Below are positions 22,238 through 32,715 of a DNA stretch of 64,000 nucleotides, piece by piece; positions within the stretch are counted from its first letter, which is position 1; each line of letters starts with the position of its first letter. The stretch lies in assembly GCF_001611675.1 (NCBI RefSeq), contig NZ_CP014766.1, positions 3,534,001 to 3,598,000 on the forward strand. The letters run 5' to 3'. This DNA is from Pontibacter akesuensis (GTDB taxonomy: Bacteria; Bacteroidota; Bacteroidia; Cytophagales; Hymenobacteraceae). The notes beneath the pieces were generated by a model. That model had not been told where the DNA came from, did not search any database, and saw only the letters and a list, made by a program, of their open reading frames with translations. The position numbers and the translations under genes are program-made.

Positions 22238-22245
22238 TACATTTG
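22238..22245 (+). promoter_or_regulatory. Candidate -7 element for the sulfite reductase leader transcript
   Basis: TACATTTG fits TAnnTTTG and would start transcription about 20 nt before the riboswitch P1 stem. The same geometry is found at the cysH locus (32716-32723). No -33 TTG sits at exactly the expected spacing. Confidence 0.5.
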
Positions 22246-22273
22246 CAGCGAATACTGTTGCAATCTGCAAGAG

Positions 22274-22374
22274 ATTTATAGACGAAGAGGCGAGAGAACA
22301 GGCTCTGTGACCCTCTGGCAACCATCCGCTTTGGAAAGGTGCCACATCCTGCCCAACAAAGGGAAAATATAAAT
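22274..22374 (+). ncRNA. SAM-I-type riboswitch upstream of sulfite reductase
   Basis: The core elements of SAM-I aptamers are present in order: GAGAGAACAGGCTCTGTGACC (P2 region), CTCTGGCAACC, then AAGGTGCCACATCCTGCC, and a P4 hairpin CCCAACAAAGGG. The P1 helix is formed by ATTTATA at 22274-22280 and TATAAAT at 22368-22374. The aptamer ends 9 nt before the start codon of a poly-Cys small ORF. A second copy with the same core and P1 arms precedes cysH. SAM binding is family knowledge; the effect on downstream genes is inferred. Confidence 0.88.
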
Positions 22375-22383
22375 TACAAAACC

Positions 22384-22497
22384 ATGAACTTAACACAGCC
22401 AACCTCTGCATCCGGAAGCGCGCCTTTCCGATACCGTTTTACTTCGTACGGCATCTCTGCTAGTGCCGCGAAGTGTTGTTGCTGTTGTTCCTGCTAG
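22384..22497 (+). CDS. Poly-cysteine leader peptide 1 (37 aa)
   Basis: A small ORF between the SAM riboswitch and sulfite reductase, starting ATG 9 nt after the aptamer. The body is rich in Ser, Thr and Ala and the end is KCCCCCSC-stop: six of the last seven codons are Cys (TGT TGT TGC TGT TGT TCC TGC TAG). The cysH leader carries an equivalent peptide ending NCCCCCPC in the same position after the same riboswitch. Poly-Cys leader ORFs are known cysteine-responsive attenuators in mycobacteria; by analogy ribosome stalling at the Cys run when charged Cys-tRNA is scarce would signal cysteine need. No independent function as a protein is suggested. Confidence 0.82.
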   Translation: MNLTQPTSASGSAPFRYRFTSYGISASAAKCCCCCSC

Positions 22498-22579
22498 GGA
22501 AACCCTCCTCTTTCTGGTCTGAAATGGTACTGCTTTTCAAGTAGTGCACAGGCCCCCTCATTTATTTTTCACGCCCATT

Positions 22580-22617
22580 CCTGCAGTGTAGTATAGGTCA
22601 TACTATACCTATGCAGG
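22580..22617 (+). promoter_or_regulatory. Strong hairpin between the two leader ORFs
   Basis: CCTGCA/TGCAGG closes an inner 9-bp stem GTGTAGTAT/ATACTATAC (one G-U pair) with a 5-nt loop and a 3-nt bulge. It lies 82 nt after the first leader stop and 23 nt before the second leader start. There is no U-tract, so it is more likely an anti-terminator, Rho-control or translation-blocking structure than an intrinsic terminator. Confidence 0.6.
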
Positions 22618-22640: not shown

Positions 22641-22784
22641 ATGCAGACAGCAGCCACACTTTTCAATCTCCCTAACTATACCGCCATTCCGACTCCTGTT
22701 GCCGTGGCTACCTTCTTCAGCCAGGCCAGTACTGCCGATTGCTGTTGCAGTCTGCAGCAGCTTCGGGACATGCGCGCCTGTTAG
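22641..22784 (+). CDS. Cys-cluster leader peptide 2 (47 aa) upstream of sulfite reductase
   Basis: A second small ORF, starting MQT like the cysH leader peptide. It shares the string ATF(F/V)S followed by a Cys run (DCCCSL) with that peptide and ends RAC-stop. The resemblance to an independent leader 10 kb away argues that it is translated rather than accidental. It ends 115 nt before the sulfite reductase start, so this operon appears to have two Cys-sensing ORFs in tandem. Confidence 0.65.
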   Translation: MQTAATLFNLPNYTAIPTPVAVATFFSQASTADCCCSLQQLRDMRAC

Positions 22785-22899
22785 GGTAAGTATCTGCTTA
22801 CGCCTTTATGTAGCGCAGTCAACACAGGCCGCGCCAGGCACCCTTTCCCATCATTTCATTTTCAATAATAGCCTAAAGGGCACTTTATACTTTACCAGC

Positions 22900-24993
22900 A
22901 TGCAAAGTTTTAGAACCGAAATAGAAAATCCGCTCGTTGAAAAAGATATCATCGAACTGGAGCGGAAGATTCGACTTTACCGGGAGGGAAAGCTTCAGGA
23001 AGATAAATTCAAGAGCCTGCGCCTGGCGCGCGGCGTGTACGGGCAGCGCCAGTTAGGCGTACAGATGGTGCGCATCAAGTTGCCTTTCGGGAAGCTTAGC
23101 ACGCAGCAGTTAATCCGCATTGCCGACATTTCGGATGAGTATTCAACCGGCAACCTGCACCTGACCACACGCCAGGACATTCAAATCCACTTCGTAAGCC
23201 TGGACAGAACACCGGAACTGTGGGCCAAGCTGGAGCAGGATGACATCACCTTGCGCGAAGCCTGCGGCAACACAGTGCGAAACGTAACCGCATCGCCGGA
23301 AGCAGGCATTGACCCGAACGAACCGTTTGATGTGTCGCCTTATGCGGATGCCACCTTCCGCTATTTCCTGCGCAACCCGATCTGCCAGGAAATGGGCCGC
23401 AAGTTCAAAATGTCCTTCTCCTCCAGCGACTCCGATACAGCCATGTCCTACATGCACGACCTTGGCTTTATACCGAAGGTGGTGGAGGGGCAATGTGGTT
23501 TTAAAGTGATGATTGGAGGAGGTTTGGGAGCACAGCCGGCGTTGGCGCATACGGCTTTTGAGTTCTTGCCAGAAGATAAGGTAATTCCTCTTATCGAGGG
23601 CGTATTGCGCATCTTCGACCGCTATGGCGAGCGCAACAACCGCAACAAAGCCCGATTCAAGTACCTGATTACGAAACTGGGGCTTGAGGAGGTGATGCGC
23701 TTGGTGAACGAAGAGTACAAAGCGTTGAAGTCAAAGATATTTGCTATCGATAAAAGCATTGATTTCAATCCGGCTCCTCCGGCTCACAGGGAGGTTCCTG
23801 ATTTTGTGATAGAGGATACTGACAAGTATAACAAATGGCTAAAAACGAATGTGTTCAGCCAGAAACAGGAAGGCTATTACGGCATCTATATCAAAGTGCA
23901 GATCGGGGATATTAGCAGCGATACGGCGCGTAAATTGGTGCCGTTGGTGCGCGATTTTGCGGCCGATGAGATTCGTGTCACGCAGGGGCAGAACCTGCTG
24001 CTGAAGTATGTGCGGGCAGAGGCGCTGCCCTACTTCTTTGCCAGTCTGGATGAGTTGGGGCTTGCCGAGCCGGGCTTCAATAGTGTGGCTGATATCACCA
24101 CCTGTCCCGGTACTGATACCTGTAATCTGGGTATTTCGAACAGCACCAACATCACGAAAGTGCTGGAGCGGGTGATAGTGGAGGAGTATCCGGAGATGCT
24201 CTTCAACACCGACATCAAAATAAAAATCAGTGGCTGCATGAATTCCTGTGGTCAGCACGGGATGGCAAATCTCGGTTTCCATGGCTCCTCACTGAAGAGC
24301 GGGAAGAGTGTGGTACCGGCGCTGCAGGTGCTTCTAGGCGGTGGTACCGTGCATAACGGGGAAGGCAGAATTGCCCAGAAGCTTTTGAAAGTGCCGAGCA
24401 AAAGAGGGCCAGAGGTACTGCGCTATGTGCTGGATGATTACCAGGCGAACAAGCTGGAAGGCGAGCGCTTCAACACCTACTACGACCGCAACGGCAAAGA
24501 TTATTTTTACCAACTGCTCAAGCCGCTTGCCGACCTCACCAGTCTAACCTCTGATGACTTCATTGACTGGGGACATCAGAATGATTTCCAGCCTGCGATT
24601 GGCGTAGGCGAGTGTGCCGGGGTGATGATAGACCTGGTGGCCACGCTACTGTATGAGGCGGATGAGAAGCTGGAGTGGGCCGCAGAGGCTCTGGAAGAAA
24701 AGCGCTTCGGCGATGCGGTTTACTATGCCTATGCGGCTTTTATCAGCACAGCCAAAGGGCTTCTGCTTGATAAGAATGTGAGCACCAATACGCAGCTTAG
24801 CATCCTGCAGGAATTCGACACGCACTTCGTCCAAACAGGCATTTTCTCATTTGAAACCGATTTCAAAACGAAGGTACTGCAAATCAACCAGCATGAGCCA
24901 AGCGAGGTGTTCGCTACAGATTACCTAAGCCAGGCGCTCTTATTTCTGCAGGAAGCGAACCGCTACAGGCACGCAGCAATTTTGAATAACTGA
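22900..24993 (+). CDS. Sulfite reductase (siroheme/4Fe-4S) with C-terminal HEPN-like domain
   Basis: A 697-aa enzyme starting MQSFRTEIENPL; an in-frame ATG at 22699 would overlap leader ORF 2 and gives unlike sequence. It has the ferredoxin-like half-domains and siroheme/Fe-S domain of the NirA/CysI family (RQLGVQMVRIKLP, STGNLHLTTRQDIQIHFV). The cluster and siroheme ligands are at TTCPGTDTCNLG (Cys ~402, 408) and SGCMNSCGQHG (Cys ~446, 450). The last ~90 residues (LEEKRFGDAVYYAYAAFIST...) form a helical HEPN-like extension found on Bacteroidota homologues. It reduces sulfite to sulfide in assimilation; a nitrite reductase role is possible but the neighbours are all sulfur genes. Regulated by the SAM/poly-Cys leader. 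Confidence 0.9.
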   Translation: MQSFRTEIENPLVEKDIIELERKIRLYREGKLQEDKFKSLRLARGVYGQRQLGVQMVRIKLPFGKLSTQQLIRIADISDEYSTGNLHLTTRQDIQIHFVSLDRTPELWAKLEQDDITLREACGNTVRNVTASPEAGIDPNEPFDVSPYADATFRYFLRNPICQEMGRKFKMSFSSSDSDTAMSYMHDLGFIPKVVEGQCGFKVMIGGGLGAQPALAHTAFEFLPEDKVIPLIEGVLRIFDRYGERNNRNKARFKYLITKLGLEEVMRLVNEEYKALKSKIFAIDKSIDFNPAPPAHREVPDFVIEDTDKYNKWLKTNVFSQKQEGYYGIYIKVQIGDISSDTARKLVPLVRDFAADEIRVTQGQNLLLKYVRAEALPYFFASLDELGLAEPGFNSVADITTCPGTDTCNLGISNSTNITKVLERVIVEEYPEMLFNTDIKIKISGCMNSCGQHGMANLGFHGSSLKSGKSVVPALQVLLGGGTVHNGEGRIAQKLLKVPSKRGPEVLRYVLDDYQANKLEGERFNTYYDRNGKDYFYQLLKPLADLTSLTSDDFIDWGHQNDFQPAIGVGECAGVMIDLVATLLYEADEKLEWAAEALEEKRFGDAVYYAYAAFISTAKGLLLDKNVSTNTQLSILQEFDTHFVQTGIFSFETDFKTKVLQINQHEPSEVFATDYLSQALLFLQEANRYRHAAILNN

Positions 24994-25076: not shown

Positions 25077-25913
25077 ATGGCATCAAGAAGAAAAGAACCA
25101 AGAAATATTGCTGCAGCGCAGCAGGCATCGCCAAAGTATATACTGCCAAAATTAACCCTGGTAGGAGCTGGTCCGGGGGATGAAGATTTAATTACCTTGA
25201 AAGGGATGAAAGCGCTGCAACAGGCGGATGTGGTGTTGTATGATGCGCTGGTAAATCCGGAACTGTTACAGCATGCACCGGCTGATGCGCCTAGAATTTA
25301 TGTAGGCAAACGAGCTGGGGCGCATTACCTGAAGCAGGAGGAGATCAACAACCTGATTGTGGACTTTGCCTTTTCGCACGGGCATGTGGTGCGCTTGAAG
25401 GGTGGGGACTCCTTTGTGTTTGGCCGCGGCTACGAAGAGTTGGCACATGCTGATAAGTTTAACATTCAGACAACGGTGGTGCCGGGAATATCCAGTGCCA
25501 TCGCGGTGCCGGAGTTACAGCAGATTCCACTCACGATCCGGGGTGTGAACGAAAGCTTCTGGGTGATAACCGGGACTACCAGTTCTGGTGACATATCCTC
25601 GGATGTGCACTTAGCCGCGCAATCCAATGCAACGGTGATAATTTTGATGGGAGTGCGTAAATTGCCGCAAATTTCACAAATCTTCGCAGCAGCCGGTAAA
25701 GCCGACACACCTGTAGCCGTTATCCAGAATGGCTCTTTGCCAGATGAAAAAATAGCGTTGGGCAACATCCACAACATTGTGGAGCGTGTAGAGGCAAAGC
25801 AGGTAGGAGCTCCGGCCATCATTGTGATAGGTGAGGTGGTGAACTACCATCCGGCCCTGCGCTATGCCCTGTCACTGCAACAGCCGCAGGAATTGGCCTT
25901 TGTGGAAGCATAA
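25077..25913 (+). CDS. cobA: Uroporphyrinogen-III C-methyltransferase
   Basis: A 278-aa SAM-dependent methyltransferase of the CobA/CysG-C family: LTLVGAGPGDEDLITLKGMKAL near residue 25, YDALVNPELL, VRLKGGDSFVFGRGYEEL, the GISSAIAVPELQQIPLTIRG segment, and VIILMGVRKL. It makes precorrin-2 from uroporphyrinogen III, the first step to siroheme, the cofactor of the sulfite reductase directly upstream. The first ~20 residues are a basic extension. It lies in the plus-strand sulfur operon, 20 bp before the siroheme-synthase fusion gene. Confidence 0.92.
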   Translation: MASRRKEPRNIAAAQQASPKYILPKLTLVGAGPGDEDLITLKGMKALQQADVVLYDALVNPELLQHAPADAPRIYVGKRAGAHYLKQEEINNLIVDFAFSHGHVVRLKGGDSFVFGRGYEELAHADKFNIQTTVVPGISSAIAVPELQQIPLTIRGVNESFWVITGTTSSGDISSDVHLAAQSNATVIILMGVRKLPQISQIFAAAGKADTPVAVIQNGSLPDEKIALGNIHNIVERVEAKQVGAPAIIVIGEVVNYHPALRYALSLQQPQELAFVEA

Positions 25914-25933: not shown

Positions 25934-27463
25934 ATGGAGCATCTCCAAAAAGATCAAATAGCATTGCCTTCCCCAGTGAAGGAGGGAGCCGAAGCGGCAA
26001 ACCCGCTATTCCCGGTTTTTCTGAAACTCGAGGAATTGCAGACGCTGGTGGTTGGCGGTGGGGCGGTAGGACTGGAAAAGCTTTCTGCCATACTTGCCAA
26101 TAGCCCGCAGGCGCACGTGCGCCTGGTAGCTCCGGAGATCCGGGAGGACATCTGGGCGCTGGCAGCCAAACACCCAACGGTAAAGCTGGACGTGCGGGAG
26201 TTTCACGAGGATGATTTGGTTGATACTGACATTGTGCTGGTTGCTACCAATGACCCTGTGCTGAACAAAGCCATCCGGGATCTTGCCAAATCTAGGAAGA
26301 TACTGGCCAATGTGGCCGATACGCCGCAGCAGTGTGATTTTTACCTGGGCTCGGTGGTGCAGAAAGGAAGCCTGAAGTTTGGCATATCTACCAATGGCAA
26401 GTCGCCCACTGTGGCGAAGCGGGTAAAGGAGGTACTGAACGAGGCCTTTCCGGAGGAGATTGACCAGGTACTGGGCAAGATGGGCAAAATACGCGCCCAA
26501 CTGAACGGCGATTTTGCAGAGAAGGTAAAGCAGCTGAACGCGCTCACGGAAGGGCTGGTGGCGCCGGTGCCGAAAAGGAAGTCGAAGGTTAACCTTACCT
26601 CTGTTTTGGTCACGCTGTTTGCCGCAATTGCCCTGATGGTAACAGGGCACCTGTTGTTCACTTACATTCCGTTGCAAACCATCGGCAACGCCGCCATGGA
26701 TGTGGCCGGACAAGTGGATTCGGATATCCTGATATTTATACTTGCCGGTTTTGTGGCGCAGCTGATTGATGGGGCTTTGGGCATGGCCTATGGCGTGAGT
26801 GCAACGACTTTCCTGTTGAGTTTCGGGGTGAGTCCGGTGGCGGCCAGTGCGAGTGTGCACGCCTCGGAGATCTTCACCTCGGGTGTATCCGGCTGGATGC
26901 ACCTGAAGTTCGGAAACGTGAACAGCAAGCTATTTAAAAATATTGTGCTGCCGGGCGTGCTGGGGGCTATTGTTGGGGCCTACCTGCTGTTCAGCTTTGA
27001 AGAATACCTGTACGTTATTAAGCCGCTTGTGGCAGTTTACACGCTGGTGCTGGGTATCCTGATCTTAAAGAAAGTGCTGCAGAAGAAGGTGAAAAAGCAG
27101 CCGGTGAAGCGGCTTGGGATGTTGGCAACAGTTGGTGGTTTCCTAGATGCCATCGGCGGTGGCGGCTGGGGCCCGATCGTGTCGTCCACTCTAATTGCGA
27201 AAGGGCGTAATCCGATGTATACGATTGGCTCTGTCAACCTGGCGGAGTTCTTTGTGTCCATTGCCAGCTCTGCTACCTTTGTCGCATTTGCAGGTATTTC
27301 GCACTGGCAGGTGATAGTAGGGCTTATACTTGGCGGCTCCATTTCAGCCCCGATTGGGGCCAGGCTGGCGCGTAAGCTGCCGGTAAAAACCATGATGATT
27401 ATCGTAGGCATCGTGGTGATCATCGTGAGCCTAAGGCTGATCATGATGGCGCTGCCTTTTTAA
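25934..27463 (+). CDS. Fusion: precorrin-2 dehydrogenase/ferrochelatase domain plus TSUP (TauE/SafE) permease
   Basis: A 509-aa two-part protein. Residues ~25-215 match the CysG N-terminal/Met8p-like module (LVVGGGAVGLEKLSAIL, DIVLVATNDPVLNKAI, ISTNGKSPTVAKRVKEVL) that oxidises precorrin-2 and inserts iron. Residues ~225-509 are an eight-helix TSUP permease (GFVAQLIDGALGMAYGVSATTFLL, GGFLDAIGGGGWGPIVSSTLI) of the kind that exports sulfite or related sulfur compounds. No separate siroheme synthase gene is seen nearby, so this would complete the cofactor pathway begun by CobA. One polypeptide thus joins cofactor synthesis to sulfur-compound transport across the inner membrane. Confidence 0.88.
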   Translation: MEHLQKDQIALPSPVKEGAEAANPLFPVFLKLEELQTLVVGGGAVGLEKLSAILANSPQAHVRLVAPEIREDIWALAAKHPTVKLDVREFHEDDLVDTDIVLVATNDPVLNKAIRDLAKSRKILANVADTPQQCDFYLGSVVQKGSLKFGISTNGKSPTVAKRVKEVLNEAFPEEIDQVLGKMGKIRAQLNGDFAEKVKQLNALTEGLVAPVPKRKSKVNLTSVLVTLFAAIALMVTGHLLFTYIPLQTIGNAAMDVAGQVDSDILIFILAGFVAQLIDGALGMAYGVSATTFLLSFGVSPVAASASVHASEIFTSGVSGWMHLKFGNVNSKLFKNIVLPGVLGAIVGAYLLFSFEEYLYVIKPLVAVYTLVLGILILKKVLQKKVKKQPVKRLGMLATVGGFLDAIGGGGWGPIVSSTLIAKGRNPMYTIGSVNLAEFFVSIASSATFVAFAGISHWQVIVGLILGGSISAPIGARLARKLPVKTMMIIVGIVVIIVSLRLIMMALPF

Positions 27464-31564: not shown

Positions 31565-32284
31565 TTATCGCGCGTGCAGGCCGCATTCCTTTTTGGAGTT
31601 ATCCTCCCACCACCAGCGGCCGGCGCGGAAATCCTCGCCTTCAGCAATGGCACGGGTACAAGGGGCGCAGCCTATACTTACAAAGCCCTTGTCGTGCAGC
31701 GGGTTGTAAGGAATGTTAAGCGCTTTGATGGCCGCCCACACGTCATCCAGAGTATAGTGCAGCAGTGGGTTATACTTAATGAGTTGGTGCGCCTCGTCCC
31801 ACTCCAGCAGCTGCAGGTCCTGCCGGGCTCCTGATTGGTCGGCGCGGATGCCGGTTACCCAAATCTGCACGCCTTCCAGGGCCCGGTTCAGCGGCTCCAC
31901 TTTGCGGATGTAGCAGCACTGTTTGCGATCGTCGATGGAGTTGTAGAAGCTCATCGGCCCTTTCTCGTTCACGAGCTGCTCCACGGCCTCGTGCTTGGGG
32001 AAGTATACTTCTATCTTTTTGCCGTAGTGGTTGTTCGTTTTGTGCAGCAGGGTATAGGCCTCGTTAAAGAGGCGCCCCGTATCCAGCGTGAAAACGCGCA
32101 CCGGCAAATCATTCTCGAAAATAAAGTGCGTGATGAGCTGGTCTTCCACGCCCAAACTGGAGGAAAAAGCAATACTGCCCTCAAACTCCTGTGCCAGGAT
32201 GCGCAGTCCCTCTTCCGCCGGAAGTTCGGCGAGGGCGTTGCGCAGGCTATCGAGCTTCGCCAGCAATCCTTGTGATAAATCCAT
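31565..32284 (-). CDS. cysH: Assimilatory adenylyl-sulfate (APS)/PAPS reductase
   Basis: A 239-aa thioredoxin-dependent sulfonucleotide reductase; start MDLSQGLLAKLD at 32284. The PP-loop-like AFSSSLGVEDQLI and VRVFTLDTGRLFNEAY are present. Cysteine pairs QCCYIRK and GCAPCTRA (a CC...CxxC pattern) indicate a 4Fe-4S cluster, and the tail KKECGLH holds the catalytic Cys. The cluster pattern marks the APS-type enzyme, which fits the absence of an APS kinase here. It is first in the cysHDN operon and lies behind a SAM riboswitch and a poly-Cys leader peptide. Confidence 0.92.
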   Translation of the reverse strand: MDLSQGLLAKLDSLRNALAELPAEEGLRILAQEFEGSIAFSSSLGVEDQLITHFIFENDLPVRVFTLDTGRLFNEAYTLLHKTNNHYGKKIEVYFPKHEAVEQLVNEKGPMSFYNSIDDRKQCCYIRKVEPLNRALEGVQIWVTGIRADQSGARQDLQLLEWDEAHQLIKYNPLLHYTLDDVWAAIKALNIPYNPLHDKGFVSIGCAPCTRAIAEGEDFRAGRWWWEDNSKKECGLHAR

Positions 32285-32440: not shown

Positions 32441-32569
32441 TTAACACGGACAACAGCAACAACAATTCAGTTTACCCTGTGCACTGGTAGATACAAAGGT
32501 TGCGTAAGCAGTGGGGGAGGTGCCATTGCTTGCTTTACTGCTTGCTGATGTGTTGTAATAGGTTTGCAT
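32441..32569 (-). CDS. Poly-cysteine leader peptide upstream of cysH (42 aa)
   Basis: A small ORF starting ATG 10 nt after the riboswitch P1 stem. It begins MQTYYNTSAS, has a Ser/Thr/Ala-rich body with ATFVS, and ends LNCCCCCPC-stop (six Cys in the last seven codons). Position, composition and terminal Cys run match leader peptide 1 at 22384-22497, and the MQT start and ATF-S string match leader peptide 2 at 22641-22784. The stop lies 156 nt before the cysH start codon. Inferred role: cysteine/Cys-tRNA-responsive attenuation of cysHDN. Confidence 0.83.
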   Translation of the reverse strand: MQTYYNTSASSKASNGTSPTAYATFVSTSAQGKLNCCCCCPC

Positions 32570-32579
32570 TGCTTTTGTA

Positions 32580-32681
32580 ATTTATATGCCCCGGCCTGAC
32601 CGGGATAGGAATTGGCACCTTACCACTTTGGAGGTTGCCAGAGGGTCATAGAGCCTAGTCTCTCGCCTCTTCTTTATAAAT
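32580..32681 (-). ncRNA. SAM-I-type riboswitch upstream of cysH
   Basis: Minus-strand reading gives GAGAGACTAGGCTCTATGACC, CTCTGGCAACC, AAGGTGCCAATTCCT and a P4 hairpin CCCGGTCAGGCCGGG, closed by P1 arms ATTTATA (32681-32675) and TATAAAT (32586-32580). Core and P1 are shared with the copy at 22274-22374. From P1 to the next ORF both loci have nearly the same sequence (ATATAAATTACAAAA then ATG). Confidence 0.9.
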
Positions 32682-32715
32682 TTTACAGACGTGACGTCCA
32701 TTGGTTTACTACCGG

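Follow-up and report, generated by a model that had tools for sequence, protein, structure and literature searches.

A SAM-I riboswitch joined to a cysteine-codon leader ORF upstream of sulfur-uptake genes in Pontibacter and other Bacteroidia

In Pontibacter akesuensis, the sulfite reductase gene (sir) is preceded by a SAM-I-type aptamer and, directly behind it, by a short ORF whose 3′ end is a run of cysteine codons. This locus raises the question of whether the two parts are neighbors by chance or operate together in the control of the genes that follow. The locus was examined in a window of 64,000 nucleotides, which is the whole stretch of DNA analyzed here, and in SAM-I loci of other Bacteroidota. 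The leader joins known kinds of part in a new combination, with an unusually clear comparative record, and it probably lets the cell sense two signals through a single RNA.

Leaders of the sir and cysH operons

The sequence-only reading of this DNA had proposed a SAM-I-type aptamer, which the RF00162 search of the window recovered at 22273–22375. The gathering cut-off of this family is 44.4 bits, and both aptamers of the window are above it (62.0 and 78.8 bits). The 37-codon ORF ending in KCCCCCSC and a stop codon is present as it had been described, at 22384–22497, and its translation is MNLTQPTSASGSAPFRYRFTSYGISASAAKCCCCCSC*. The proposed adjacency of aptamer and ORF also holds, but the spacing of 9 nt does not, since 8 nt separate the end of the aptamer match from the ATG. 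The position upstream of sulfite reductase was supported by the Pfam domains NIR_SIR and NIR_SIR_ferr; against NCBIfam, every match of the sir protein was under the cut-off.

Upstream of aptamer 1 there is a promoter-like box, also visible in the alignment of sir loci, of the type TANNTTTG, which we take to be the consensus of the Bacteroidota −7 promoter box. Directly past leader ORF 1 a stem-loop is predicted, and in several sir orthologues equivalents with altered sequence and retained pairing were recognized by eye. A terminator search of the window returned no intrinsic terminator behind the leader. At the gathering thresholds, each leader of the window has one Rfam match, not the two aptamers of a tandem riboswitch.

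A second copy of the aptamer and Cys leader is located on the minus strand before cysH (32441–32682). The sir and cysH operons are convergent and their contents, by Pfam, are the sulfite (or nitrite) reductase, siroheme genes, a TauE fusion and cysH; two genes downstream of cysH, recognized by sequence, are presumably cysD and cysN. The nearest 14 named sulfite reductase loci (L076–L089) are all from Pontibacter, with 76–89% identity. All 14 named Pontibacter sir loci, which were located by regular expression, without Rfam scoring, have a homologue of leader ORF 1 with the Cys run.

Between leader ORF 1 and sir, the window has another Cys ORF, leader ORF 2. A second ORF with at least three Cys in eight residues was found at 10 of 15 sir loci, with its stop codon 103–121 nt 5′ of sir in the ten loci and 114–118 nt in eight of them. 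The shuffle control for this second ORF gave 1 in 500 at a threshold of at least four Cys, and is thus inapplicable to the window copy, which has only three in eight residues.

As a check for chance, the 303 ATG ORFs of 20–60 amino acids in the window were screened; a density of at least four Cys within eight residues occurs in four of them, two being the SAM leaders. The three Cys peptides of the window presented no NCBIfam or Pfam family above the cut-off, with one chance-level NCBIfam match (E 0.11). Apart from these features, the sequence TTTATACTT occurs in 25 copies in the window, for 0.37 expected (e.g., 22884–22892), and has the appearance of a repeat present in very many copies in the host genome.

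Table 1. Coordinates of leader elements and genes of the two sulfur operons in the window
Feature	Position	Strand	Evidence
Bacteroidota-type −7 promoter box (TANNTTTG), here TACATTTG, 27 nt 5′ of aptamer 1	22238..22245	+	sequence
SAM-I aptamer 1, P1 of UUUAUA/UAUAAA type	22273..22375	+	RF00162, 62.0 bits, E 5.7e-12
Leader ORF 1, 37 codons, Cys codons 31–35 and 37 (22474–22494)	22384..22497	+	
Stem-loop GGUCUG...CAGGCC directly 3′ of leader ORF 1, then loose U-rich tract	22516..22554	+	MFE fold
Leader ORF 2, MQTAAT...DCCCSLQQLRDMRAC*; in-frame upstream ATG at 22611	22641..22784	+	
sir, assimilatory sulfite (or nitrite) reductase, first structural gene	22900..24993	+	Pfam NIR_SIR, NIR_SIR_ferr
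Siroheme uroporphyrin methylase-like gene, sir cluster	25077..25913	+	Pfam TP_methylase
Siroheme-synthase N-terminal domain and TauE/SafE sulfite-exporter domain in one fused ORF	25934..27463	+	Pfam NAD_binding_7, TauE
cysH (adenylyl/phosphoadenylyl-sulfate reductase), first gene past the leader of aptamer 2	31565..32284	-	NF002537 above cut-off; PF01507
Leader ORF of aptamer 2, 42 codons, C-terminal NCCCCCPC*	32441..32569	-	
SAM-I aptamer 2, P1 type as aptamer 1	32579..32682	-	RF00162, 78.8 bits

Distribution of the Cys leaders among SAM-I loci

From RF00162 searches at the family, order and phylum levels (60, 118 and 198 genomes, overlapping), together with the sir search, 207 SAM-I loci of Bacteroidota were taken, of which 205 were scored. 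The P1 type, the spacing and the downstream gene were assigned by regular expressions, and the expression for UAUAAA-type P1 also admits UAUAAG and AGAUAAAU. The loci counted include relatives and hence are not independent.

At 74 of the 104 loci with a UAUAAA-type P1, the ORF places at least four Cys within eight residues; 10 more have three and 20 have fewer, whereas none of the 101 loci with GAUAAG or another P1 reaches three. Lack of conservation of the Cys run in relatives, which the sequence-only reading had named as a ground for refutation, is contradicted by leaders with at least three Cys at 84 of 104 UAUAAA-type loci, against 0 of 101 with other P1. Leaders with at least four Cys are spread over 14 families of the class Bacteroidia, in the order of the host (f1, f2, f4, f9, f13, f17, f18, and f21) and beyond it (f22, f27, f58, f61, f86, and f91). 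Outside the class, no Cys leader was found in the 27 scored loci (of 28). A covariance model built from the UAUAAA aptamers and the start codon had matches in 205 of 296 Bacteroidia genomes; of 69 loci from this model, some duplicating earlier loci and some bearing a GAUAAA P1, 57 could be scored, with at least four Cys in 19 and three in 4. No SAM-I motif was found by regular expression within up to 2 kb 5′ of sir at 66 named loci outside Pontibacter (L090–L155), of which L107 and L154 offer less than 2 kb of upstream sequence.

The Cys leaders stand before sulfur-uptake genes and hardly ever before later methionine genes. Leaders with at least four Cys were found at sir (14/14), cysH (5/5), nhaC (7/7) and M14 peptidase genes (3/3), at four of five APC genes (the fifth has three Cys) and at two of four ATP-grasp genes (the other two have three). 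For metY, 30 of 63 loci reach this number, 4 further loci have three Cys, and among all 63 the P1 is of another type in 20. The Cys leader is absent from metH (0/49), metB/C (0/12) and hom (0/4), together 0 of 65 loci, and no metX locus (0/6) has at least four Cys. The 20 of 104 UAUAAA loci with fewer than three Cys include nine at metY. Since a UAUAAA P1 without a Cys run occurs at three metH and five metX loci, gene function, and not P1 alone, predicts the leader. On re-examination of 33 unassigned loci, eight with a Cys run were found to carry cysH or sir motifs, and seven have metX-like motifs (L164 with three Cys, the others with fewer). At the Cys-run loci L028, L252 and L271, a motif look did not tie the next genes to sulfur.

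The host genome itself has six SAM-I aptamers, five of them with a Cys-run ORF next to them: those of sir, cysH, metY (O-acetylhomoserine sulfhydrylase), a RimK-like ATP-grasp gene and an NhaC-type antiporter gene. The sixth, 5′ of metH, has no Cys-run ORF. At metH loci (e.g., L037, L040, and L048–L051), the sequence TTCTTGATAAG recurs after a GAUAAG-type P1 and could base-pair with the aptamer's 5′ strand (CTTATCAAGAA), to which it is complementary; judging from this complementarity, it is likely to be an anti-aptamer platform, quite unlike the Cys leaders.

Runs of Cys codons also occur apart from SAM-I. The host genome has 21 distinct (TGY)5 sites, six in ATG ORFs of at most 60 codons, of which four are SAM leaders, and two in longer ATG ORFs (78 and 118 codons). 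A general role of (TGY)5 sites as leaders was discarded, with few of them in short ORFs and one of the six antisense to a Gln-run gene. In the genus, 30 ATG(TGY)5 loci were examined; 21 are SAM leaders and eight are of another type, with an ORF of 11–12 codons, MCCCCC..., 5′ of a gene with the motif LDNAATTP, which we take to be cysteine-desulfurase-like. The host copy (L306, C1:1535101–1535118, minus strand) begins about 20 nt past the end of a presumably glmM-like gene; the others are in L311, L314, L317, L318, L319, L330 and L331. The MCCCCC ORF is followed by a terminator-like hairpin and T8 (−37.7 kcal/mol, z −5.0 in the host copy), and no SAM aptamer motif was found within 260 nt 5′ of it. 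Possibly this ORF attenuates in response to Cys with the sign reversed; alternatively, the terminator may be that of the gene before it.

Codon selection and structure of the leaders

In 73 of the 84 leaders, the start codon is 8–12 nt past the UAUAAA P1 core. The start is ATG in 75 and GTG in 9, and the length ranges from 23 to 51 codons (median 39, n = 84). The last Cys of the run is the final codon in 51 of 84 leaders and is at most two codons from the stop in 75, and the longest run varies from 2 to 10 Cys. The box TANNTTTG was found 65–5 nt 5′ of the aptamer at 51 of 84 leader loci, for 3.4 expected from shuffles, so that the transcript probably starts a short way before the aptamer.

The Cys run persists while the ORF bodies diverge strongly. 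Both codons are used (TGT 327, TGC 168) and some runs are broken by other codons (e.g., CCICICCPCCC), which argues for selection on Cys codons and not for a simple repeat. A scan blind to ORFs, for four consecutive TGY codons 15–220 nt past P1, gave 65 of 104 UAUAAA-type loci against 0 of 101 others. The tract is a near-repeat, as would be expected if (UGY)n were selected as RNA, for protein binding or structure, with the reading of Cys incidental; however, at 57 of 59 loci the first ATG within 30 nt past P1 is in frame with the TGY run and open through it, the interruptions of some runs are whole codons, and pairing of the tract with the RNA downstream is not enriched (see below), which makes selection on the RNA tract highly improbable. 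The coding element expected of a ribosome-mediated attenuator of the trp/his type, a short ORF enriched in codons for the amino acid under control, is present in these sequences as a conserved in-frame Cys run.

The codons of the leaders also differ according to the gene. In Pontibacter, at least two Met within the last 15 residues were found in 13 of 13 metY (homocysteine synthase) leaders and in 0 of 29 sir, cysH, nhaC and ATP-grasp leaders. In the whole set of metY leaders, which takes in 14 leaders added solely for metY, Met accounts for 80 of 720 tail residues against 6 of 1183 body residues. The difference is small when any Met in the tail is counted (metY 35/48, against 20/39 for sir, cysH, nhaC and APC; p 0.046). 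Read from these sequences, the leader codon content appears to track the gene, with Cys for sulfate/sulfite reduction and transporters, and Cys plus Met for O-acetylhomoserine sulfhydrylase. In view of these Met codons, the cysH copy and the tandem ORF at 22641–22784, the earlier single-locus view was too narrow.

That the ORFs encode a functional small Cys-rich peptide, for thiol or metal binding, co-expressed with the sulfur genes is the least probable of the readings considered here. The product is Cys-rich and its presence is conserved, but the bodies diverge and vary between 23 and 51 codons with the Cys run retained, the same type of ORF precedes unrelated transporters and enzymes, the Met codons track the product of the next gene, and the three peptides of the window match no family above the cut-off.

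At Pontibacter metY loci (L002, L010, L036, and others), a CCCTT in the 5′ flank and an AAGGG in leader codons 2–4 are kept in 13 loci, and L045 has CCCTG in place of the flanking CCCTT. A long-range CCCUU:AAGGG pairing that encloses the start codon is possible; these sequences are near-invariant, which makes a covariation test impossible.

The RNA 5–95 nt past the leader stop is more structured than its dinucleotide shuffles (mean z −1.05, n = 84), more strongly for metY (z −1.77, n = 34) and less so for sir (z −0.65, n = 14), against controls in the leader body (z −0.21, n = 83) and in the following 90 nt (z −0.01, n = 84). A strong hairpin with a U-tract follows 30 of 84 leaders (36%, against 18% in shuffles), with a similar excess at loci with other P1 (17/61, against 11%). 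As only 30 of the 84 leaders have it, intrinsic termination is probably not general, and a strict stem scan gave 7 of 84 leaders for 2.7 expected; in view of this weak excess, a general intrinsic terminator was set aside. A trp-type exchange of strands, in which the Cys run would be strand 1, was also considered, but duplex energies against dinucleotide shuffles gave no signal. Pairing of the Cys run with post-leader RNA is not enriched (mean z −0.17 in 74 loci, against −0.19 for a control piece), so an exchange that includes the codons is unsupported, and the mutually exclusive structures that hold the codons in an attenuator were not found for the Cys run. Consensus folds of the aligned post-leader regions of sir, metY, cysH and nhaC returned local stems only, from alignments too divergent for firm covariation.

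The leader bodies are C-rich and G-poor, with C above G in every one measured; the mean C−G is +0.145, against −0.019 for genes, and upstream regions of ordinary genes also show the bias, more weakly (−0.058 to +0.142 for 11 genes of the window), in a range that overlaps that of the leaders.

Proposed control and relation to known systems

We consider it likely that these leaders are two-input attenuators, in which the SAM-I P1 gates the leader start, Cys-tRNA is read at the Cys run, and the genes are on when both are low. In SAM-I switches, the binding of SAM turns genes off, and in classical attenuators an untranslated leader is the off state (superattenuation). If P1 gates the leader, the untranslated leader must therefore be the off state. 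The aptamer, the ORF, their spacing, the codon selection, the gene specificity and the excess structure past the stop are observed; SAM gating of initiation, ribosome stalling, the direction of regulation and the step at which output is set are inferred. Nothing but the region where leader initiation takes place, 8–12 nt past the P1 core, is close behind P1, and a SAM-stabilized P1 that ends about 10 nt 5′ of the start codon would lie inside the ribosome footprint. Excerpts of one study describe Bacteroidetes mRNAs as without SD, with initiation governed by mRNA structure and by A at −3 (PMC6847099). The commonest base before the leader start is A (45/84 at −3, 58/84 at −6), within an A-rich stretch. 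At L269, a metX locus, it is the structural gene that starts 9 nt past the aptamer match end, behind a UAUAAA P1; this is roughly the usual position of the leader start, as expected if P1 gates the start codon.

With SAM bound, P1 would be stable and cover the SD-less initiation site, the leader would remain untranslated, the RNA downstream would stay in its default closed state, and the genes would be off. With SAM low and Cys-tRNA ample, ribosomes would reach the stop and depart, and the genes would be mostly off. With SAM low and charged Cys-tRNA scarce, ribosomes would stall in the Cys run, shortly before the ORF ends, and they and the ribosomes queued behind them would block termination or unfold the post-leader structure, allowing the sulfur genes to be made. 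At sir, the second Cys ORF may repeat the Cys test ahead of the gene. The off state could depend on Rho, on intrinsic termination or on a start site that is closed. Rho is encoded in the host genome, which together with the C-rich, G-poor leader bodies fits a Rho-dependent default-off state; these features and the few terminators incline us to Rho, and the structure past the leader stop leans to an RNA switch.

The aptamer and the Cys leader could also be independent controls in series, the former acting on transcription or RNA stability and the latter separately, their closeness being a matter of packing. Each acts alone elsewhere, as is established for SAM-I riboswitches and Cys leaders (excerpts of PMC8632094), and Pontibacter itself has the aptamer-less Cys ORF 5′ of the cysteine-desulfurase-like gene. 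However, the distance from the P1 core to the start is kept at 8–12 nt in 73 of 84 loci despite divergent ORF bodies, the gap between P1 and the ORF leaves little space for another platform, and loci with other P1 have no Cys ORF, so that separate controls seem unlikely. Returning to the joint two-input device, for the class Bacteroidia we incline slightly to the view that SAM-I serves as a gate for leader-peptide translation, giving an AND device with a codon-programmed second input, doubled at sir and acting by superattenuation.

A combination of this kind is known from the mgtA leader of enteric bacteria, where a Mg2+ sensor and the proline-rich leader peptide MgtL occur together. As here, ion sensing and leader-peptide translation share one 5′ leader, but the ligand, the codons and the order of the parts differ. 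Polycysteine leaderless uORFs of mycobacteria are the subject, reportedly, of Canestrari et al. in 2020. Later papers, in excerpt, cite such uORFs as Cys-responsive attenuators of downstream genes, and they resemble the leaders described here in being short ORFs with contiguous Cys codons (PMC9094748, PMC9031893). In those accounts, as excerpted, the uORFs are leaderless and have no aptamer, whereas here the start is internal, after a SAM-I P1, and the phylum is another; with an aptamer and a promoter-like box annotated upstream, leader ORF 1 would not be leaderless.

In Xanthomonas, the SAM-I riboswitch SAM-I_Xcc likewise takes in a second signal related to translation, but according to the excerpted account its platform binds uncharged initiator tRNA directly, while here a ribosome on Cys codons would do the reading (PMC7270179). 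The uORFC-8-2 motif of cysS in Rhodobacterales has a conserved leader ORF with tandem Cys and a proposed ribosome-mediated attenuation; it differs in its two Cys codons, its terminator-like U run and its alphaproteobacterial hosts, and the excerpts mention no SAM aptamer (PMC8632094). In Sinorhizobium (S. meliloti) metA, a riboswitch likewise affects translation via upstream sequence, with a terminator in its leader, but it is a SAM-II and regulatory codons are not reported in the excerpts (PMC9373788). In the open-licence literature, with most subscription journals outside its scope, no description of a SAM riboswitch joined to a Cys leader was found in the parts of the texts available; passages of two riboswitch surveys contain nothing on a SAM aptamer with a Cys leader (PMC3766115, PMC2258182), and the use of a metabolite aptamer by superattenuation was not found in the same open-licence texts.

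If the proposed control is true, a large bacterial class couples SAM and aminoacyl-tRNA (Cys, Met) signals in one protein-free RNA. The dozens of natural variants allow the gene, the codons and the aptamer to be compared, and they add a set of short leader peptides without a curated family match where tested, as for the three of the window. The codon content of a leader would be a possible way to read its regulation. In addition, one genome presents the same aptamer with different platforms, at metH on the one hand and at metY and sir on the other, so that the part played by the leader can be tested directly.
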